This document shows positions 16,468-63,448 of a stretch of 64,000 nucleotides of DNA, one piece after another. The translations under genes and the position numbers were made by a program. The stretch covers positions 30,668,611 through 30,732,610 of the forward strand of contig NC_092576.1 of the NCBI RefSeq assembly GCF_037975245.1. The letters run 5' to 3'. The notes under the pieces are model-generated. The model did no database searches. It saw only the letters and a list, made by a program, of their open reading frames with translations, and was not told the DNA's origin. This stretch comes from Apostichopus japonicus (lineage: Eukaryota; Echinodermata; Holothuroidea; Aspidochirotida; Stichopodidae). Every line of letters starts with the position of its first letter. The stretch's first letter is position 1.

Positions 16468-18047
16468 TCATTCACAATGTATTTTTTTATTCAGCACACA
16501 TCTCACAGATAAAACAACCACTTTCAAAGTGCCTGCACTCCTGGTGTGCCCAATCTTTACAGGCAGAACACTGTATCCACTTCTCCCCAGATAATCTACG
16601 AACTTCTCCAGACAAATACATGCATGGAGTATTTGGATTGTTCCGTGGAAATTTCTTTTGATTTTTTTTTCACATGTTGGCCTGGTCTTCACTGTAGATT
16701 TTTTGGCCATCAATCTCTGTGTGGTTTTGTTGGAAACCGCGTTGGCTTTATCTTCAACTTCTTTATTATTTGGACTTTCTGTTATAACTGCGGTCTTTCC
16801 ACGCCTGCCAGACGACCGTCGAGGTTCCAAAGGCCTATAGGAGCATGATGGTTGTTGAGGATCTGGACTGTCTAGTAGGCCTACCTCTGGGTGATGCGGC
16901 TCGTCCACGACGAAATCACTGTGATTATCGTCTGCTTGTAGCTGCTGCTGTTCTGGCTCATCGGTTTCACTTTCAGTGTCCAGACGAATGTCAGTTGGGG
17001 CAGCTGCCATGAAATCATGATCCCCGAATACATGCCGATTCATTGGCCAAATGCCTGCTTTCTTGAATCCATTTATCGCGATGAGCTGGGTTGCAGCTCG
17101 GACATTGGCATCTCGGAAAAGCTCAGCGACATGAAATGTTGTGACGTCTCTCCCGGCATGGCTACGTAGCCATGTTTCCACGGCTTGTGTGTAGTAGGAC
17201 ATTAACGGTTCCATACATCACACGTCTAGAGGCTGGAGGAGGTGACTGCAATGTGGTGGCAGGCAAAGTACAACAACATGCTTTTCTCGAGCCTATGTTG
17301 ATGAATGGAATGTTGGTCGTATGTGTTTTGTGACCGTCGAGAATGAGTAACACTGGTTTCTCAACAGAAGACTTGGTGTGCTTTACAAAGTGTTCAAACC
17401 ATGTAACGAATATGTCGGACTGCATCCAGCCAGACGAGTGTGGCACTGCGATTGATCATGGAGGAGCGTTGCTCGGGTTTCATGCATTTTCTTGGAAAGA
17501 TGAATAACGATGGGATGAAATATCCTGCCGCACTCATGCATATCTCCGCAGTTGTAAGCTGGCCTCGCTTGGCAGACGACAGGCACCCGACCTGTGTTTT
17601 TTTTTGGGGTGATAGCTTGTTCGGTACGGTTGAAATACCAGTTTCGTCGACATTGTAGATTCTGTCTGGAGTAAACTGGTGCGTGTCTTGAAGTTTTTCC
17701 AACAAATCGAAGAATTTCCCCACACTGACTGCATTATATCCTAGGGCTCTAACTGCCGAAGTTGCCTCTGGTGTATGTAGGGAAAGGTCATCTCTATGAC
17801 GGGACATAAAACCTTTTAGCCAGTCACGTCCTGCCTCTTTTCTGGCAGTATTAAAGCGATCTTGAAGGTTATTGGCCTCTGCATATTCATATGCAACCTT
17901 CATTAGAAGTTTTGTGGTGAACCAAAAAAGCATGGCTTCCATTTCTTTAATGTGATTCAGCAACTCTTCACCACGCATTTTGCTGGAGATCCTGCTATTC
18001 GTGGTCGTCGTTGGAGGGTTGTACGTGGAACCCCATGCACATAGCAT
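16468..18047 (-). pseudogene. Pogo/Tigger-like transposase pseudogene
   Basis: On the minus strand the CENP-B-type DNA-binding region (GRDWLKGFMSRHRDDLSL, LHTPEATSAVRA) is followed by the DDE_1 core: RIYNVDETGIS with the first catalytic Asp, then VGCLSSAKRGQLTTAEICMS, SGWMQSDIFVTWFEHFV, and LLILDGHKTHT with the second Asp. The C-terminal part reads YYTQAVETWLRSHAGRDVTT and FKKAGIWPMNRHVFGDHDFM. The parts lie in different frames with breaks near 17450 and 17210, and the third acidic motif region at 17230-17290 is scrambled. A Pro/Gln/acidic tail follows to about 16700. The family is Tc1/mariner-related. GTGG(C/G)CCGTTTTAGC words at 16244 and 18285 may be subterminal repeats. Confidence 0.8.
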
Positions 18048-18555
18048 GCCACTTCAGTCCCATATCACATAGACTCTCATGATTGTCTCTCTGTTTTTCT
18101 TTTGTATTTGCCCATTGTCTGTTGATTAAAAGAAAAAAATAAACAAATTAATTGACAGATTGTGTTTTTGCATTATTTTCAAAACTTTTGACCCAGTAAG
18201 GCAATATCCGCACGGGAACCTAATGTTGTTGAACACTGTGGCTAAAGCGGGCCCCCATGCTTTCCGTGCTGTAAAATGGGCCCCCTGTGGGCCGTTTTAG
18301 CCGTACACGTAATATATAGATATTTCGCGAAACCGATCGTAGGATGTGCGGTATAGAAAAGTTGTCATTACCAGATTCATTCTTGAATAACATGTTAGAC
18401 ACGAATAAAAAAATTTGGAATTTGGCATGATTTTTGACTGCTGTTGGCCTAATAAAAAAAATAAAAATAAACGTCATGGGTGATCATCTGGCCTACTGCC
18501 ATAGGATCTTAATACATTATCTGGCTTATGCAAGCCGAGCGAGAGAGTAAACAAC

Positions 18556-21689: not shown

Positions 21690-22711
21690 ATTTTAGTGCC
21701 CAAATTGAAAATGACCCTCATTACATCAGCTCTGATGACGACGACAACGTTCAATCAGCCCCATCACAGCCAACTATTAAACCTGGAGCGACACCACGTG
21801 CGTCGGGAGAACCTGAAGCTATTGAATTAGTTGATGGCCCTAGCCTACCAGAACTTGTACACTTCAAACCGCAGACATTTTCTGGTGACAAATACCCAAG
21901 GGACTTTAACAAAGAATGGTATACACTTCATCCATGGATTAGTTGGGTATGTCACGCAGTTTGCTTTCCTTGTGAAGGGCCCAATGGCGATACATCTTTA
22001 ATTTTTAAAAACTGGAAGAAAACACAACGAACACTCACTATCTAATGCACATGAACTCGCTATGACCAAGTGGCTTATGAACAAATCCAACACGAATCCA
22101 AATACATCGTTATTAACCATGATGGACCGTCACCACAATGATATGATACGTTAAAACAGAGATTATATGCGTGTCATAATAGAATGCCTTTCATTTACGG
22201 CTGCCCAGAACATTGCACAGCGTGGTCATAAGGAAGACAGCATATATCGACAAGATTTCTGAGACCAATCGAGGCAATTTCCTAGAGCTTCTCCATATTC
22301 GATGCAAAGACATACCATGGCTAGCCGAGAAGCTCTCAAGTCAGCAGAGTCAGCACACGCAATGGGTGTCACCAAGCGTTCAAAATGAGCTAATCGACAT
22401 CATTGCTAAGTTAGCGCTTGAACGGATCACGAATGAAGTTCGTGCAAGCGGTAAATACAGCGTAATCGTGGATGAAACTTCTCACATCAGTAGGCTGGAG
22501 CAAGTGTCCATATGCTCGAGATATATATTTAAGGGTAACACGAAGGAGTCTTTCGTGGGATATCCCGCATGGCGGGTCACGTTAAAAGCACTCGACTAAA
22601 TCAACCGAAGGATTTGTGTTATATAATTTAGTCACGTCGGTTATTAGAGGTTTGGGTCTAAAGCTTCAAGACGTGGTCGGCCAATGCTACGATGGAGCCT
22701 CAAATATGGAC
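21690..22711 (+). pseudogene. hAT-like transposase pseudogene with TTF-type zinc finger and DUF4371-like region
   Basis: Plus-strand segments in several frames. YPRDFNKEWYTLHPWISWV and CHAVCFPCEG with FKNWKKT is a TTF-type zinc-finger region. Then come NIAQRGHKEDS, RGNFLELLHIRC, VSPSVQNELIDIIAKLALER and GKYSVIVDETSHISRLEQVS (22440-22505), where VDET.. is the conserved acidic motif, and finally VVGQCYDGASNM at 22675-22710. Interrupted by frameshifts, a 31-bp LINE tail at 22561-22591 and a longer LINE tail at 22712-22934 that removes the rest. An upstream frame at 21342-21665 may be its N-terminal exon but has no motif. Confidence 0.7.
22561..22591 (+). mobile_element. 31-bp LINE family B tail (terminal hairpin only)
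   Basis: Consists only of the terminal hairpin and tail (CCCGCATGGCGGG plus TCACGTTAAAAGCAC). It sits between the hAT segments ending SFVG and beginning STKSTEGFVLYNLV. No target duplication is obvious. Confidence 0.7.
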
Positions 22712-22934
22712 GGTGGTGTGCTGGGGAAGGGTGTTTTCTTTCTCTGCGTGCTGATCGTCCATTTGTAGTTTTTGGAATGTTTCAGTGGGTGGTTGGGCGT
22801 TTTGTCTCTGCAGGTCGGTGGGCGTATGTACTTTTTTGGCTCGCTTGACCTGAGTTTCGTTTGTAAGAATGGGATGGTTTGGTAGTGCCGTTTGGCCGTG
22901 ACGTTTTGTATTCCGTATTACGGGTCACGTAAAA
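22712..22934 (+). mobile_element. LINE family B 3'-end insertion
   Basis: Starts within the 3' UTR (GGTGGTGTGCTGGGGAAGGG) and ends CGGGTCACGTAAA. TATGGAC lies on both sides (22704-22710 and 22936-22942 region), fitting a 7-bp target duplication. It truncates the hAT pseudogene. Confidence 0.75.
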
Positions 22935-23400: not shown

Positions 23401-23595
23401 ACTCACCTTGTTGCGCAGAAGCCAAAAGATGCATTTAACTTAAATTGTGTGGTTTCATCGTCATAAACAGAATGTACTAAATAACGTATATGAGAATTTG
23501 TGATTGATATTAGAGGCTTTCTGGTCCCTTTGCCCAACAACCATTTCGCCCAACTGCCATTTCGCCCAACCAGCCTGGTCATTTCGCCCGAAAAT

Positions 23596-23760
23596 TTTGA
23601 ATGTTTGATTGGGGGGTTGGGCGTTTTGTCTCTGCAGGTCGGCGGGCGTTTGTTTTTTTGGCTCGCTAGACCTGAGTTTCGTTTGTCAGAATGGGATGGT
23701 TCGGTAGTGCCGTTTGGCCGTGACTTTTTGTATCCCGCATGGCGGGTCACGTAAAAAGCA
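23596..23760 (+). mobile_element. LINE family B 3'-end insertion in the foldback loop
   Basis: Runs from TTTTGAATGTTTGATTGGGG through GGCTCGCTAGACCTGAGTTT to the hairpin CCCGCATGGCGGG and TCACGTAAAAAGCA. Very close to the 3' end of the 39.5-43.5 kb LINE. Confidence 0.85.
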
Positions 23761-23802
23761 CCATGCTGGCTGGGCGTAATGACCAGGCTGGTTGGGCGAA
23801 AT

Positions 23803-23997
23803 ACTTTTTAAGAAAAAGTCACCCAGGAAAGAACCTGGGCACGAAAACCAAACTACCAAACGACTGATCCGCTCTCAGCCCCAGTCCCCTTGCATCGGGA
23901 CTGTGACTGTGTGATCATCGTCAGATGTGTATCACCATTCCCGAAGGGAACAGATACTACACATGATCTTAGCCAAAAGGCCGAGAAGCGATTGCGC
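23803..23997 (-). mobile_element. SINE with a U2 snRNA-derived head (SINEU-type)
   Basis: Read on the minus strand from 23992 it begins ATCGCTTCTCGGCCTTTTGG and continues CTAAGATCATGTGTAGTATC, then TGTTC. This is U2 snRNA nt 1-45 with one visible change (A to T near nt 30), including the branch-site recognition GTAGTA. The U2 match then stops. The body has a CCCTTCGGG hairpin and ACACATCTGACGATGATCAC. The 3' end has a stem-loop CCCAGG-TTCTTT-CCTGGG, then GTGACTTTTTCTTAAAAAGT. A perfect 20-bp duplication flanks it: CCAGGCTGGTTGGGCGAAAT at 23783-23802 and 23998-24017, with 5 extra nt (TGCGC) at the 5' junction. A plain U2 pseudogene would continue past nt 45 and lack the shared body seen at 62988. 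Confidence 0.85.
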
Positions 23998-24399
23998 CCA
24001 GGCTGGTTGGGCGAAATGGCATTTGGGCGAAAAGGTTGTTGAGCGATGTGACCTGGCATCAATTCTTCGAGAATCTCATCTGTATAGGATCTTCGTCGAG
24101 ATCGAAGTCTGGTGCTGCTTGTTCCCTGTCTTCTGTAAATGGTGGTTTTGATGTGTGTGGTAAGGCTTGTCTACCTCAAAGATAAAACTTAAATAAAAGT
24201 AGATTAAAAAAATTACTAAAACAATAATTGATATTTTAAAAGAATAAAAAATTGATTTAGTTTAGTAGAAAAACGTAAACTCACCTCTTCCGAATCCACC
24301 GCTTCTTTATTATTTCCACTGGGGTGACGTTTGAAATTGGACCTACTTTTAAAAGTCGACCAAAACCCTTGCAAGAGAAAACCCGTACAAAAAACCCCA

Positions 24400-40104: not shown

Positions 40105-43100
40105 TGGCCCATACATTTTCAGTTGCCACCTTCAACGTCAATGGCATGAGGGATCATCGCAAGCGCAGTCGCATTTTCCAATATTGTATTTCAATGGAAG
40201 TCGACTGCGTTTGCCTGCAAGAAACACATATTTTGGAAGAAGATGTCCCTCTATGGGCTTATGAGTGGGGTGGTGGGCTGCATGCTTCGTTTGGTTCGTC
40301 TTCACGAGGGCCGATTGGTTTGCATTCTTTTCAAGTATCCACAGGGTAACATCTCCCTTTGCAATGTGTATGCTCCCAATCGGCCTTCTGCTAGACGAGA
40401 TTTTTTTAACACACTGCCTTCCTTTGTTCCTGGTAGTGCTCCATGTGTCATGGTCGGAGACTTTAACAGTTAGTGTCCCAGACTCGGGTCTTGACAGACT
40501 CGGGGCTTCTGTGTCTGCTAGTCCCGACGCTGGGATCACAGAATTGGACAGATTCACTTCGGCACACCTTTTAGCCGATGTCTGGAGGCATATGCACCCG
40601 TGTAGTACGGTGTATACGTGGGTGAGGCCTAACGGAGAAGATGCCTCCAGGATAGATCGAGTGTATGCGCCCGTAAGTTTTAAATTTTCGGGTTGCGAGA
40701 CGCTCAGCTGTCCGCTCTCTGACCATGACACTGTGGTAGCACGTTTTGTTTTGCCTTCCATTTTCCCGATCGGGCCGGGGCCTATGGAAGCTTAACTGTC
40801 GGATTCTTGGCGAGGCAGAATTCCGCCAAGGTTTCGAGACCAGGTACAAAGGATGGCAAACATTGAAGCCGGCCTTTGCTTGTACATCCCAGTGGTGGGA
40901 TGATATCAAGTTGCGCATCAAACGCTACGCAATTCAGTATTGCGTGACCCGCGCACGGCGTCGAAGAGAAAAATTCTCGAAGCTGTGCGCGGAGGTGAAT
41001 TTGGCGACCCTTCGGCAGTCATCGCTTTGCAGACTTATCTCGATGAAAAGTACCACGGTGCCCGCGTCAGGGCCCGTGTCGAAGCGGTGGAAGCCGAGGA
41101 GCGCCCTTCACTGAGGTTTTACCAGTCCGTTAGCTCATCGGCGGGTGACAGACGCGTCCCGTCTGTGCGCGCTACCGATGGGACCGTGGTCAGTGACCCT
41201 CACGGCATTGTCCGCGTATATAAAGAGTATTATTCCACTTTGTTTACGCGTGGCAATGTCGACTTGTCGGCACAGTCTGATTTATTGAGGGGAATCTCAA
41301 GAACCGTTCCCCACGATGTCAATGATATTTTGGGGGGCGGAATAACCACTGTTGAGCTTTGGAAGGCGCTTTCGAAGATGAAGAATGGCAAGTCCCCGGG
41401 TTCGGACGGGCTTCCGAGGGAGTTCTACCGAACCTTCTGGGCAAAAATAGGACCCGACATCAGAGCCGTCTTCGAAGACGCCTTCCAAAACGGACTGTTA
41501 AACGAAAGTCAACGTCTGGGCATGATTACTTTGCTGCCAAAGTCTGGGGACCCCTTGGATCCCCATAACAAGCGTCCGATCACCTTGTTAAATGTGGACT
41601 ACAAGTTGCTGGCTAAGGCTTTGTGCAACCGCCTTGAACTGGCCATGCCGCATCTTGTTGGTGATCTCCAGACTTGTGCAGTGAAGGGTCATTGCATCCA
41701 GCAGAACTTGTGGTTGATGCGCGACTTGACCGACTGGACCAGCAGAAGGCCTTTGACATGGTGGATCGCGGTTGGAGACGTTTCAGTTGCACCCAAATTT
41801 TCGTAAATGGATTTCTGTTTTGTATGAACAAAGTTTCAGTTCTGTTATCGTAAATGGGTTTTGTTCGGAGGTTTTTAACGTAGAGAGGGGGTGCGCCAGG
41901 GGTGCCCTCTGTCTCCGTTACTTTATGTTTTGTTTAGCGAGTCCCTCTCTCGTCTTTTGGAAAGGGACTCCAAACTTGTTCCATTCGTTGTGCCAGGGGG
42001 TGCCAAAGTGAAATGCGCTCAATATGCAGATGACGTGACATGTATTGTTTCGAGTCTCGGCTCCTTTCGCGCACTCTCGCAGGATCTATTTTTGAGAGAG
42101 CTACCGGGGCGAAGTTGAATCCAGAAAAGACAAAGGGCCTTCGTCTTGGTAGCTGGAGATACAGAGACTTACCATTCGGTGCGTCGTGGTCGGATCAGAA
42201 TATCAAAATTAATGGTATATGGTTCGGCTACGATGCACCTTGTGATGTCACCTGGAACGAGAGGGCTGAGGTATTTCAGAGCAGACTCGAAACCTTTGGC
42301 ACCCGCTGGCTTTCGATCTTGGGGAAAGTCACTGTTATTAATCGTTTCGTTTCGCCCATCTTGTGGTACCCGGGCGCGGTGTACCCTATTCCGCGTCGCG
42401 TCCTGGTACGGTTGGAGAGGGCGATTTTTTCATTCATATGGTCTGGTGGTACAGAGCTTGTCAAGAGGGCGGTATTGTACCAAAAACTGGAGAAGGGGGG
42501 ACTAGGGGTGGTTCATCTGGGAAGTAAATTGACCTTTTTGTTATTTAAGCAGTTGTTTGTAGCGGTAACTGACCCAGGGTTGCCTTGTTCATATTTTGTA
42601 CGTTTTTGGGGCGGTTTGCACCTGCGTCGATGGGTCCCGGCGCTGTTTAGCAACAGAGAACCGCATAGTAGTACTCCAAACAGGGCGGTGCGTGTCATCT
42701 GCTCCGCGCTGATTGAGTTGCCCCCTGTTGACCTGTCACAGCCGGCCCTCGTTCACAGTTCGTTGAGGGATAAGGCCTTGAATGCAACTTTTGTCCAGGG
42801 ACGTCATTCTGCAGAAGTATGGCGTTCGGTGCATTCAAGGCTGAATGGTTGCAGGCTCCGTGATCTTGCATGGAGAGTTGCACACGGTGCCTTGGTGACC
42901 AACCTAAAAAGATATCATTGGCGATTGGGTGATGGACTGTGCCCTAGGACCGGCTGTGACAGCTTAGAGAGTACTGCTCATGTTTTTTGGCATTGTTACT
43001 TTGTAGTCAACTTATGGGAGTGGTTCCAGACCTGGACCGACCGTGTTACGGGAGACCGTTCATGGTCGGTAGGGCAGGGCTTTATTTTATATGGGGTAGA

Positions 43101-43266
43101 CCCTCCAGTTTGTTCGGTAGCTGTGTTGCACCGCATCATTTTTGTTTGCTCTATTGTAAAAAAACATGTTTGGCGGAATAGATGTAATTTGGTTTTTAGG
43201 GGGAAATTTGCCACTTGGCAGGCAGTCCTGGAGGCGGTGAAGTCTGACATTCGCCTTTCAGATTGA
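40105..43266 (+). pseudogene. LINE family B ORF2: AP endonuclease, reverse transcriptase and zinc-binding C-terminus
   Basis: Starts MAHTFSVATFNVNGMRD. Endonuclease motifs are ATFNVNG, CLQETH, NVYAPN (40360), VMVGDFN (40450) and ASRIDRVYAP with PLSDHDTV (40645-40735), which cuts the target DNA. Reverse transcriptase: LSKMKNGKSPGSDGLPREFY (41365-41425), LGMITLLPKSGDPLDPHNKR, ITLLNVDYKLLAKALCNRL, RQGCPLSPLLYVLFSESL (41895) and the catalytic QYADDV (42020). The C-terminus has CPRTGCDS..HVFWHC (42940-43000), a zf-RVT-like motif. The LPK.GD and LLN.DYK signatures place it in the Tx1 branch of L1-type LINEs. Frameshifts near 40335, 40475, 40790, 40940, 41765 and 42100 inactivate it. 42040-43266 is still one open frame of 408 codons. 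Confidence 0.9.
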
Positions 43267-43538
43267 AGGCGTTTTTCGCCGTTTATCTGGGGCTGCCTTT
43301 TTTGGACGCTGGTGTGCTGGGGAGGGGTTTTTCGTTTCGCTGCGTGCGGGTCGTCCTTCTGTACGTTTTTGAATGTTTGAGTGGGGGGGGGTTGAACGTT
43401 TTCGTCTCTGCAGGTCGGCGGGCGTATGTTTTTTTTGGCTCGCTAGACCTTAGTTTCGTTTGTCAGAATGGGATGGTTCGGTAGTGCCGTTTGGCCGTGA
43501 CGTTTTGTATCCCGCATGGCGGGTCACGTAAAAAGCAC

Positions 43539-44858
43539 CATATTGTTATCTATACATGGCAAAGCAATGCTACAACTTTGACACCCCCAATTTTCCTACC
43601 ATCTCCCCACACCTTACCATTCACATTCTAGTAAGAACAAATACAAATGACGCAAACAGCCAACTATCCTATATCCACTTTTGTAACAGTTGAACAAGCT
43701 GTGGGCTAAAAATAACATTAAACTCATGTTTCAATTGTTGCCTCAATTGTTCACATAATATCAGCTGTACTTGTGCCTCGAGATAATTTGGTTCCTTTAA
43801 AAACTTTCTCTTTCTCTGAGTCTGTGTCACCATTTGGCAAAGTAGAATTCTGCTTAGATGCCCATGCAGGTTGGTTCCTCTCCCTCAAAAGTTTACAGTG
43901 CAAGTTGTATATGTGTATATTATGAAAACTGTAAAAAATACAAATCAAGTCTGTTCAGAATATATGCAGCGATTCCCACTACTACACTTGGTTGTCGAGG
44001 CAGCCTTGTTTAATAACATTAGCTCTTTGCAGGTATTTTGACGGAGAGTTTGTTCACAAACATTAGACTTGAATAGTGAACAAATTCTTTTACAGATATA
44101 AAAGTTAGAAACTTAATGTCTATAATTTCTGTTGTACAGTCAAACCCATAATATTCTATCACTTATCTCACTTAAGCAGCCTACAGGGTTCGGACTGTTT
44201 GCCTAACATAATCATAAAGTTTAATAACTGAATATCGACCTTCTATTCTGAATTCCCCCCCCCCCAAAAAGGAACTAAGGGGTCTTTTTGCTGTGTGACA
44301 TTTGTAATATCATTCAGTGGAATAGAGGCATTATCAGAAACGCATACACTCTAGGATCTTAAAGTGACTTTTGGATGACAGCAATTTTTTACGTTTTCCA
44401 GCTTTCAGAATACATTCCTGTCGCCGTTTCTTACTGATGGAGTTAATAAAGATGGAATCCGTTTCCGTTTAGCCTTTTCTTTTGCACAATTTGAATTATG
44501 GGCTCGCACTGGAGTCACTTGAATAATGTGGCTTGCTAAAGTCTCATGGGGATGTTTTAGCTTCATCAGTGAAAATCTCCCTCATAACCTCTTTGCTACA
44601 AGTACTGGTCTCCGCATGAGGCATTTCATAGCAGAATCCGTTCCAAACACAAACAATAATCATCAGTAGATTTCCTTTGATAGATGTGCTTCAGTCACAG
44701 ATATATAATATTGAAGAATGTCTCTGTCAGAGTTCTAAATTATAGTAGTTGCACAGGAGGTTTTGAAAGCATGGAACCAAACTCTTCAGATCCGGTACCT
44801 TTTCACAGATCACCTTCACAGATTTCAGCTTCAAAATCGCCAGCTACAGTTAGCTCCA
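43539..44858. other. Stretch without a recognised gene
   Basis: AT-rich. Minus-strand blocks with Lys/Arg-rich translation (43751-43948 and 44390-44560) could be exons of an unknown gene, but I found no family signature. C10 at about 44256. Confidence 0.4.
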
Positions 44859-45140
44859 TGTCCCGACGTTTCCATGTCCCGACGTTTCCATGTCCCGACG
44901 TTTCCATGTCCCGACGTTTCCATGTCCCGACGTTTCCATGTCCCGACGTTTCCATGTCCCGACGTTTCCATGTCCCGACGTTTCCATGTCCCGACGTTTC
45001 CATGTCCCGACGTTTCCATGTCCCGACGTTTCCATGTCCCGACGTTTCCATGTCCCGACGTTTCCATGTCCCGACGTTTCCATGTCCCGACGTTTCCATG
45101 TCCCGACGTTTCCATGTCCCGACGTTTCCATGTCCCGACG
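44859..45140 (+). repeat. 16-bp tandem array, subtype TGTCCCGACGTTTCCA
   Basis: About 17.6 head-to-tail units with no mismatch that I could see. Followed to about 45340 by a flank containing CTTGTGACCGAAAATTGCTT, shared with the 59.9-kb element. Because 16 is not a multiple of 3, the array is open in several frames and gives artefactual 16-residue repeats. Same family as the arrays at 47823 and 59943, with three base differences per unit. Confidence 0.95.
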
Positions 45141-45802
45141 TCCAAAAAAAATAACATTTTTCCCGACCCCATTTTTGGGGGATTTAATTGTTTTGACCCG
45201 AAAAAAGAGAAAACAAGTTTTTTATTACCTTAATAGTTCTTGTGACCGAAAATTGCTTGTCACCCTGCTAACTCGCTCGTTTCAGCCTAATAAATTTTCG
45301 ACAAAAATGTGTTTATATTTAGACCCAAATATGTGGTAGGCCTACAATTTTTTGGCGGAGGGGGGGGGGGCAGTGTCTTGCGCAAATGGGATGTGGGCAA
45401 TAGCCATGCCCGCTTTATCTCGGGGCTCAGTCGTTGGAATTTGAAAACAAATTAAGGAGTGGTGTTGGCGGGAGAGGGATGCCAGCCGTGAGAATTGGCC
45501 CCACCACCCATAAAACCGTGCAGACGCCACTTGGTTCCCGGGACCCTGAAAATTGTTAGGGTCGTCATAGGTTCGGACCATAATTTTAGGCCTGTGTTGT
45601 TGGTATACAGTCTTGTATCATGGTCGTCGATGTATTTATCTTTTGATTTTCATGTATATATTTTGTTTGTACAAATATACAACACGCGCTTTACGGTTGT
45701 CTTATTGTTTTAGGTAGCCCATGCAACTGTTGGTTTTCCAGTTATAAGACATGACAAGGGGTATGCTTATGTTAAGACCAGGATCTCTAGATCCCACTGT
45801 AG

Positions 45803-47190: not shown

Positions 47191-47402
47191 GGGAAGGGTG
47201 TTTTGTTTCGCTGCGTGCTGGTCGTCCTTTTGTGTTTTTTGGAATGTTTCAGTGGGTGGTCTGGCGTTTTGTCTCTACAGGTCGGCGGGCGTATGTACTT
47301 CTTCGGCTCGCTTGACCCGAGTTTCGTTTGTAAGAATGGGATGGTTTGGTAGTGCCGTTTGGCCGTGACGTTTTGTATCCCGTATGACGGGTCACGTAAA
47401 AA
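47191..47402 (+). mobile_element. LINE family B 3'-end insertion with 16-bp target duplication
   Basis: GCACATTTTAATTACA occurs at 47175-47190 and 47403-47418. The insertion runs from GGGAAGGGTGTTTTGTTTCG to GTCACGTAAAAA. The GCAC that follows TAAAAA in other copies is part of the target here. Confidence 0.85.
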
Positions 47403-47432
47403 GCACATTTTAATTACAATTTAAGGTGACAT

Positions 47433-48089
47433 CCCTATGTTCCGACGTCTCTATGTTCCGACGTCTCTATGTTCCGACAAATTGCTCTTAATTTTTTTGG
47501 ACCAAAATTTTTTCGGGCCCAATTTTTTTTTGGAGACTCAATCTTTTTGGTCCCCCATTTTGCGGACGAAATTTTTTTGGGGACTTAATTTTTTGGGACC
47601 CAATTTTTTTGGGGGGAATAAATTTTTTGGACCAACATTTTTTCTGACCTACCTTTTTGGGGGACACAATTTTTTGGACGCACCAAATTTTTTTTCAGGA
47701 AAAAAAGGGCCCAAAGTTTGTTATGACCCAAGTAGTGCTTGTGAGCGAAATTGACCCGAAATTGAACTGTTTGTACTCAAATTTTTTGAGACCAAACTTA
47801 CTTTGCTCCAAAAAAATTTGGTCGGAACATAGAGACGTCGGAACATAGAGACGTCGGAACATAGAGACGTCGGAACATAGAGACGTCGGAACATAGAGAC
47901 GTCGGAACATAGAGACGTCGGAACATAGAGACGTCGGAACATAGAGACGTCGGAACATAGAGACGTCGGAACATAGAGACGTCGGAACATAGAGACGTCG
48001 GAACATAGAGACGTCGGAACATAGAGACGTCGGAACATAGAGACGTCGGAACATAGAGACGTCGGAACATAGAGACGTCGGAACATAGA
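47433..48089. mobile_element. Element with 16-bp-repeat inverted ends, copy at 47.4-48.1 kb
   Basis: Left end: about three units of TATGTTCCGACGTCTC (47433-47478). Interior 47480-47822: T-rich string of ...CCAATTTTTTTGG... words, ending with GGGCCCAAAGTTTGTTATGA. Right end: about 16.6 units in inverted orientation (CGGAACATAGAGACGT, 47823-48089). The interior recurs inverted at 60385-60770. No coding sequence. The right array abuts a LINE remnant at 48090. Foldback elements with tandemly repeated inverted ends (TU) are known in sea urchins. Confidence 0.8.
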
Positions 48090-59942: not shown

Positions 59943-60770
59943 TCTCTATGTTCCGACGTCTCTATGTTCCGACGTCTCTATGTTCCGACGTCTCTATGTT
60001 CCGACGTCTCTATGTTCCGACGTCTCTATGTTCCGACGTCTCTATGTTCCGACGTCTCTATGTTCCGACGTCTCTATGTTCCGACGTCTCTATGTTCCGA
60101 CGTCTCTATGTTCCGACGTCTCTATGTTCCGACGTCTCTATGTTCCGACGTCTCTATGTTCCGACGTCTCTATGTTCCGACGTCTCTATGTTCCGACGTC
60201 TCTATGTTCCGACGTCTCTATGTTCCGACGTCTCTATGTTCCGACGTCTCTATGTTCCGACGTCTCTATGTTCCGACGTCTCTATGTTCCGACGTCTCTA
60301 TGTTCCGACGTCTCTATGTTCCGACGTCTCTATGTTCCGACGTCTCTATGTTCCGACGTCTCTATGTTCCGACGTCTCTATGTTTGGACCGAAAAAATTT
60401 TCGGCCTTTTTTTTTTTCCACCAAATTGTTGACCAACATATTTTCGGAGCAAAATTATTTTAGACCAATATATTTTTATGACCAAATTTTTTTGGACACA
60501 ATCTTTGACGCCAACATGTTTTCGGAGCAACTTTTTGGGACGAACATTTTTTTGGACAACTGATTTTGGGCCCAAAAAATGTCAGTAGATACAATAAAAT
60601 TACGGGGCACAAGCAATTTTCGGTCACAAGCACTTTTTGGGTCATAACAAACTTTGGGCCCTTCTTTCCCTGAAAAAAATTTGGTGCGTCCAAAAAATTG
60701 TGTCCCCCAAAAAGTTAGGTCAGAAAAAAATTTTGGTCCAAAAAAATTAAGTCCCCACCCAAAAAAATTG
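59943..60770 (+). mobile_element. 16-bp-array element, copy at 59.9-60.8 kb
   Basis: 59943-60384 holds about 27.6 units of TCTCTATGTTCCGACG with no mismatch that I could see. 60385-60770 is the T/A-rich flank made of CCAAAxxTTTTTTGG words and is the inverse of 47480-47822 (for example GGGCCC and GACCTA words, and AAGCAATTTTCGGTCACAAG). No array is present at the other end. No coding sequence: the long frames across it reflect the 16-bp period. Confidence 0.9.
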
Positions 60771-62915: not shown

Positions 62916-62987
62916 GTTATTGAATGCCTAACTTTGATTTTACGTCAGTCCAGGTAGACATCATCAGACAACCTTTCACAGACTGGC

Positions 62988-63076
62988 AAGGGGACTGGGG
63001 CTGAGAGCGGATCAGTCGTTTGGTAGTTTGGTTTTCGTGCCCAGGTTCTTTCCTGGGTGACTTTTTCTTAAAAAGT
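62988..63076 (+). mobile_element. 5'-truncated copy of the U2-headed SINE
   Basis: 89 bp identical to the 3' part of the SINE at 23803-23891 (reverse). Perfect 17-bp duplication ACCTTTCACAGACTGGC at 62971-62987 and 63077-63093. It lacks the U2 head and ends with the stem-loop CCCAGG..CCTGGG and TTAAAAAGT. Confidence 0.9.
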
Positions 63077-63448
63077 ACCTTTCACAGACTGGCTGCAGTT
63101 GAGCTAAGAAACTATGTGGTAGACTCTTTCCTTCGTTGTAGGTACGTGTACCTTCCCACATGTCAGTGCGGTATTTACACTAGTTATCGTCAGGACAATA
63201 CTGGTGTTGTGCGTCAACATCATGGAGGGCGTTGTGGTACAGTCCCGCCATTATTTCCAGCTGCATCTGTTGCACGATATTGGTTATTTCATCATCATCC
63301 TTTGTGTTTGTGACATATTTACAGATTTTATTACGGTAGTAATCACCCAGTTTAGTGATAAATGGGTTAGTAAGTCCATTTTGCCCTCCCTTCACCTCCT
63401 TATTTCGATCGCGTACGCTTTTGAAGTTTGGTCCACTGGTCCACTGGC

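Follow-up and report, generated by a model that had tools for sequence, protein, structure and literature searches.

Introduction

The described systems closest to the element reported here are the SINEU elements of crocodilians, SINEs with U1 or U2 snRNA heads, which Kojima reportedly described in 2015 and which are said to be linked to Tx1-Mar LINEs and to have Mariner as their target. A SINE usually carries a Pol III promoter inside its head, and a U1 or U2 head has none. The rDNA parasites of the R2 type have no promoter of their own; they use the transcription of the host gene, whose copies stand in tandem and receive the element at a fixed site.

According to PMC5753468, SINEU is a SINE class of Repbase defined by the origin of the head. 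The U2 gene also has its own LINEs, Keno and Utopia; PMC4640811 gives nt 39 as the first U2 base after Utopia and the same 3' flank for Keno. Both snRNA-headed SINEs (SINEU) and U2-specific LINEs (Keno, Utopia) are already known. In the literature searched, which covered the 2015 description of SINEU through reference lists, there was no U2-headed SINE outside crocodilians and no SINE resident in U2 genes. An echinoderm family of U2-headed SINEs that also resides in U2 genes is therefore new as far as searched.

The present analysis concerns a stretch of 64,000 nucleotides from contig NC_092576.1 (C16 below) of the holothurian Apostichopus japonicus, referred to as the window, and genome-wide counts refer to one assembly of 671,581,487 bases in 35 contigs. 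The window contains a SINE which resembles SINEU in being short and non-autonomous, with an snRNA-derived head and target duplications. It differs from SINEU, as that class is described, in the holothurian host, in the copies that sit in U2 genes at one nucleotide, and in a U2-like target preference. With the R2-type parasites it shares a fixed site in a tandem array and, probably, the use of host-gene transcription; unlike them, it is non-autonomous, has an snRNA gene as host and is found in hundreds of copies outside the array. Like the mammalian snRNA/LINE-1 chimeras, it has the 5' part of an snRNA fused in sense and target duplications; according to PMC13174262, however, those chimeras are independent events which are usually not propagated, whereas here one junction occurs about 200 times.

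Results

The SINE copy in the window

A sequence-only reading of the window had proposed a SINE made of U2 nt 1-45 and a non-U2 body, about 190 bp in total and flanked by a perfect 20-bp duplication. This structure was confirmed (Table 1). The copy is 190 nt long (45 + 145), with U2 nt 1 at 23992 and the opposite (3') end, ...CTTAAAAAGT, at 23803, and a single substitution separates it from the consensus built on 88 copies. The tail has the layout CCCAGG-N6-CCTGGGTGACTTTTTCTTAAAAAG. The exact 20-bp repeat is a true target duplication, because the other arm of the inverted repeat that hosts the SINE has the site without insert (the empty version lies at about 23555-23589). Extra bases such as those found here between the duplication and U2 nt 1 are absent in 47 of 60 clean SINE sites.

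Table 1. Positions of the SINE copies and of associated features in the window
Feature	Position	Strand	Evidence
U2-headed SINE, full-length copy, 190 nt	23803..23992	-	full-length matches genome-wide
U2 head, snRNA nt 1-45	23948..23992	-	Rfam RF00004; all 45 nt shared with array U2 genes (100%)
Non-U2 part of SINE: body with 3' tail, 145 nt	23803..23947	-	predicted hairpin CCCAGG..CCTGGG, then terminal ..CTTAAAAAGT
Target site duplication, SINE 3' side	23783..23802	.	exact 20-bp repeat
Target site duplication, SINE 5' side	23998..24017	.	exact 20-bp repeat
5 additional bases separating the duplication from U2 nt 1	23993..23997	.	
Host inverted repeat (MITE-like), left arm, with uninserted target	23523..23578	+	89% complementary to 23998-24053
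Host inverted repeat, right arm, broken by SINE	23998..24053	-	
Second SINE copy, 5'-truncated at SINE nt 100	62986..63076	+	100% identity over 91 nt
Target duplication of second copy, left (16 bp; last base ambiguous with SINE)	62971..62986	.	
Target duplication of second copy, right (16 bp)	63077..63092	.	
LINE-W, Tx1-like LINE: broken ORF2 pieces and 3' end; not part of SINE	40904..43541	+	Pfam RVT_1, zf-RVT
LINE-W 3' ends	22707-22934, 23595-23764, 43303-43541, 47191-47406		

With the Rfam U2 model, for which the gathering score is 46, the head stretch alone (23940-23992, short search) reached 58.3 bits (E 5.7e-12), and the whole-length alignment across 23787-23992 reached 54.7 bits. Since the head alone outscores the full-length alignment, the body contributes no U2 score and is not U2; U2 sequence past nt 45, which a U2 pseudogene should have, is absent from the copy. 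The 190 nt have no coding frame, the stop-to-stop frames across the SINE being short and not conserved features, and a tRNA search found none.

Elsewhere in the window, two transposase-like open frames were recognised by eye at 16468-18053 (-), with no Pfam match at E 0.001. Perfect 16-bp tandem repeats with related units (..ATGTTCCGACGTC.. / ..ATGTCCCGACGTT..), in both orientations, are present at 44855-45141, 47821-48089 and 59943-60384.

The family in the genome

A 25-nt pattern across the head-body junction, with up to 2 mismatches, gave 198 matches genome-wide (105 + 93), and a 33-nt pattern of the SINE tail, with the same tolerance, gave 746 (385 + 361); both patterns when reversed as controls gave 0 matches. 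The 198 junctions exclude the possibility that U2 and this body are joined only once in the genome. The expectation that the window copy belongs to a family, with many copies having the same body and different duplications, was borne out. Among the 99 fetched copies whose 3' end is intact, 46 have U2 nt 1 as their very first base. A U2-headed SINE family in an animal lineage outside crocodilians, as had been proposed, is supported by hundreds of copies. When tail matches were sampled (exact matches taken in list order, skipping places already fetched), 40 of 40 proved to be the U2-headed SINE, many of them 5'-truncated. The distance from the consensus had a median of 0.5% and a maximum of 16% in the 88 copies reaching at least SINE nt 35, the median being skewed to young copies, since the other 38 of the 78 fetched stretches were chosen as best matches to the window copy and their low divergence is partly a matter of this choice.

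The element is short, repeated and non-coding, and its target duplications vary from 8 to 24 nt in length (60 clean sites). Over nucleotides 1-45 the head matches the genome's own U2 genes without a difference, and 68 of 71 heads have GATCATGTGTAGTA. The heads derive from the local U2, because T at nt 30, where the Rfam consensus has A, is common to the heads and to the U2 genes of this genome. An internal Pol III promoter was not found in the SINE: there was no box B-like sequence, the best match having 4 mismatches and being equalled by 497 of 500 shuffles, and the box A-like match was no better than chance (410 of 500 shuffles). The U2 head is itself not of the Pol III type. The element is a young, multi-copy, non-autonomous retrotransposon, and for lack of the internal promoter it is a SINE in the wide sense only, that is, mobile and non-autonomous. 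Two patterns searched in viral contigs had 0 matches; a search of other genome contigs gave 5 bacterial 18-mer matches, which were taken as chance.

Two ideas on the origin of the sequence were dropped. An ancestral head of U2 nt 1-50 was considered for the TTTTC found at 46-50 in some copies, but only 2 of the 16 older copies (more than 3% from the consensus) have TTTTC, and most of them show CCCTTTCGAGGGG at these positions. The start of the body as antisense U2, an idea taken from a predicted head-body hairpin, found no statistical support, since 568 of 1000 shuffles did equally well.

The distribution of the copies is uneven in places. On C17, 16.7-25.5 Mb holds 19 of 78 collapsed exact-junction sites, where about 1 was expected (a post hoc comparison); the LINE named LINE-W in Table 1 clusters there too, and the region of this SINE/LINE-W cluster is possibly one of low recombination or sex linkage. 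On C18 (9.489-9.508 Mb; L128, L129), copies that begin with SINE nt 25 follow one another about every 1.86 kb, which would fit a SINE multiplied as part of a tandem satellite. Up to nine copies, mostly truncated, form tandem runs at L050 (C2:21947045-21949536), L021 and L018, in which one short duplication repeats between the copies.

Resident copies in the U2 array

The U2 genes form a tandem array of 645-bp units on C16, the same contig as the window; at least 42 genes were found on C16 at 184.8 bits and at least 4 on C15 (46 scored of 40,968 first-look candidates). In 6 genes of the C16 array the SINE tail is directly joined to U2 nt 38 onward, and a diverged orphan U2 on C20 also holds a SINE at nt 37/38 (SINE 83.5%, U2 90% identical), which argues that the association of the SINE with U2 is old. 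In these six array genes and the orphan, the SINE behaves like a U2-gene-specific retrotransposon, inserted at the conserved U2 site (nt 38/39); several hundred copies lie outside U2 genes, and the SINE has no reverse transcriptase and endonuclease of its own as Keno and Utopia have. Across 55 kb of the array, 37 of 50 U2 sites were intact at nt 37/38 and 13 carried an insertion, four being the SINE and nine being LINEs (2 LINE-A, 3 LINE-A', 4 LINE-B).

The upstream region of at least one resident is unchanged. The head of the copy at C16:31132320 and its entire 452-bp upstream spacer fall within a stretch of 1301 nt that matches an uninterrupted U2 unit at 100%, and this resident therefore retains the U2 promoter region. 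Over 190 nt it is identical to 13 dispersed copies, and the resident at C16:31133763 is identical to one. The commonest dispersed haplotype (32 of 88, with 10 identical full-length copies) was not seen in a U2 gene. Residence in U2 genes offers an origin for both the head and a promoter.

Two residents have U2 nt 53 joined to a truncated body, as expected of separate 5'-truncated insertions, and at L124 the 3' end of LINE-A' directly precedes the remaining U2 nt 35-53. The full-length residents carry a single head, so that either a homologous resolution of the 5' end or an originally headless insertion must be assumed.

In the U2 genes examined (L037, L054-L056), nt 30 is T (ATCATGTG) where A stands in the Rfam consensus; this position lies right next to the sequence that recognises the branch point. 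Stem IIa of these genes differs from that consensus as well (UUUCAG/CUGAAA).

Choice of target

From the 99 copies with an intact 3' end, 60 target sites were kept that had a duplication of at least 8 nt within 7 nt of the copy; repeats of one site, pure AT runs and SINE-made flanks were dropped (one such flank, L018, was retained). The off-target motif is AYCTTTT, with A in 52 of 60, T or C in 54 and C in 30, followed by a T-rich stretch. For the motif test, 50 of the 60 sites were used, namely those with no extra base after the tail and no flank ending in AAAAG. Their match to the U2 site ATCTGTTC averaged 3.82 of 8 positions, against 2.18 in 2000 shuffles (highest 2.76); without the first A it was 2.82 of 7, the shuffles giving 1.97 (highest 2.48). 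At the level of sequence, the dispersed sites are similar to the one in U2. Off target, no preference was seen for the upstream half of the U2 site (1.74 of 7 against 1.78 in shuffles), and the G at +5 of the site is rare there (6 of 60).

In four cases (L022, L092, L114, L125) a SINE had inserted at nt 37/38 within the U2 head of another SINE. The tandem runs at L018, L021 and L050, to judge by their letters, would fit repeated insertion at AAAAAGT/ATC, which resembles U2 TAGT/ATC. Where 1-2 bases stand between tail and duplication, they begin with A at 8 of 8 usable sites and are AT at two (L018, with its SINE-derived flank, being left out). A and AT are the next bases of U2, which weakly hints that the SINE RNA may have run on into U2.

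LINEs at the U2 site and in the window

At least four LINE families (LINE-A, LINE-A', LINE-B and LINE-C, the last seen twice at the U2 site) share the U2 insertion point of the SINE to the nucleotide. LINE-A is 5.3 kb long and has open frames of 510 aa (with a CCHC knuckle) and 1162 aa; the latter has Exo_endo_phos (AP-type endonuclease), RVT_1 (reverse transcriptase) and zf-RVT, and among solved structures LINE-A ORF2 is closest to human L1 ORF2p (E 5.6e-82, against 3e-20 for R2). LINE-A' is related to LINE-A at 44% and the 3' part of LINE-B at 29%. Counted genome-wide by their 250-nt 3' ends, LINE-A has 7 copies, LINE-A' 12 and LINE-B 7, and all of those found (7/7, 12/12, 7/7) lie in or beside the array at C16:30.87-31.17 Mb, whereas the SINE is scattered. 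The insertion site is that of Keno and Utopia as described in PMC4640811, the SINE and LINEs here joining U2 at nt 37/38, within the ambiguity of the shared AGT. The AP-type endonuclease of LINE-A, the only LINE in which this was testable, is as in Keno and unlike Utopia in the same paper, and the SINE, unlike both, codes for nothing. The SINE tail was not shared by any LINE seen at the U2 site, and no LINE bearing it was among the 40 of 40 sampled tail matches.

At L057 (junction at C16:31014754) LINE-A' meets U2 at about nt 28-31, and the start ATG of its ORF1 coincides with U2 nt 29-31, where an ATG exists only through T30.

The window itself contains LINE-W (Table 1), whose RVT_1 and zf-RVT scores are both below the Pfam curated cut-off and whose protein is 96% identical in amino acids to an A. 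japonicus protein. The MITE-like repeat that hosts the SINE also contains one LINE-W copy. The sequence-only reading had taken this Tx1-like LINE for the likely partner of the SINE. A dispersed LINE of this kind could mobilise the SINE, with the U2-like motif arising from pairing between U2 sequence behind the RNA tail and the nicked DNA. The two share a 3' layout (a hairpin, then AAAAAG), both cluster on C17 at about 15-25.5 Mb (for LINE-W, 25 of 41 among the matches listed fall at 15.4-25.4 Mb), and the A or AT after the tail suggests U2 sequence in the template. However, local alignments of the LINE-W 3' end to the SINE tail and body were no better than shuffles, the LINE-W insertion flank was CAC in 22 of 25 examined, without CTTTT or another U2-like continuation, and the G at +5 that pairing would favour is the rare base noted above. 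We consider mobilisation by LINE-W unlikely, though by no means negligible. The LINE families at the SINE's own U2 nucleotide are better placed as partner, though none of those seen shares the SINE tail.

Discussion

Our preferred reading, to which we give a probability of roughly 0.7, is that U2 genes are the home of the SINE, that the U2 promoter drives its transcription and that a LINE enzyme scatters it to sites off target. The SINE body would sit in a U2 gene at nt 37/38, the site used by the U2-specific LINEs. The U2 upstream region would then drive a transcript from U2 +1, composed of the head of U2 nt 1-45, the body and, probably, U2 nt 38 onward; the dispersed copies that begin at U2 nt 1 have the 5' end expected of such a transcript, and the residents identical to dispersed copies would be among its sources. 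A LINE enzyme, perhaps from one of the families at the U2 site, would reverse-transcribe the SINE RNA at a new site by target-primed reverse transcription. The set-up would be renewed whenever a copy lands at nt 37/38 in a further U2 gene or in an older SINE's U2 head. At AYCTTTT sites elsewhere, which are like ATCTGTTC, the product would be a copy beginning with U2 nt 1 but lacking the U2 upstream region. As to the single head of the full-length residents, homology to the U2 5' part already present at the target may resolve the U2 head of the cDNA, or else the first insertion may have been headless.

Alternatively, the U2 head could have been acquired in a single event, when template switching or RNA ligation in the course of reverse transcription by a LINE joined it to an otherwise ordinary SINE; the residents in U2 genes would then be mere landing places and not the source. 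Fusions of snRNA and LINE are well documented for mammalian L1 (PMC13174262), and no resident is known for the most frequent haplotype, as this explanation would allow. On the other hand, it predicts neither the repeated insertion at one U2 nucleotide, nor the insertion into SINE heads at the same nucleotide, nor the U2-like off-target motif, and it leaves the SINE without any recognisable promoter; we regard it as improbable. A divergent or decayed U2 gene or retropseudogene, to which the Rfam alignment of the whole stretch to U2 might point, is already refuted, since the entire score comes from the head and the same non-U2 body recurs in hundreds of places.

If the SINE does live in U2 genes and use their promoter, as we prefer to think, the heads of snRNA-headed SINEs may be made by their target: a LINE-mobilised sequence inside an snRNA gene would take over the promoter and the 5' end as its head, renew itself in the gene array and seed the genome from there. 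We put this forward tentatively, at somewhat short of even odds. Gene-headed SINEs in general (U1, U2, perhaps 5S) could arise in this way, because the U1, U2 and 5S genes are also targets of site-specific LINEs.

The window SINE passes the Rfam cut-off for U2, which calls for caution in snRNA annotation. In this family a single gene comprises the head, the promoter region and the target site, and one assembly shows the residents, the dispersed copies and the competing LINEs together. The family thereby offers a testable origin for snRNA-headed SINEs, in respect of both the source of the head and the mode of transcription, and a natural case of a non-autonomous element parasitising the array of an essential splicing RNA.
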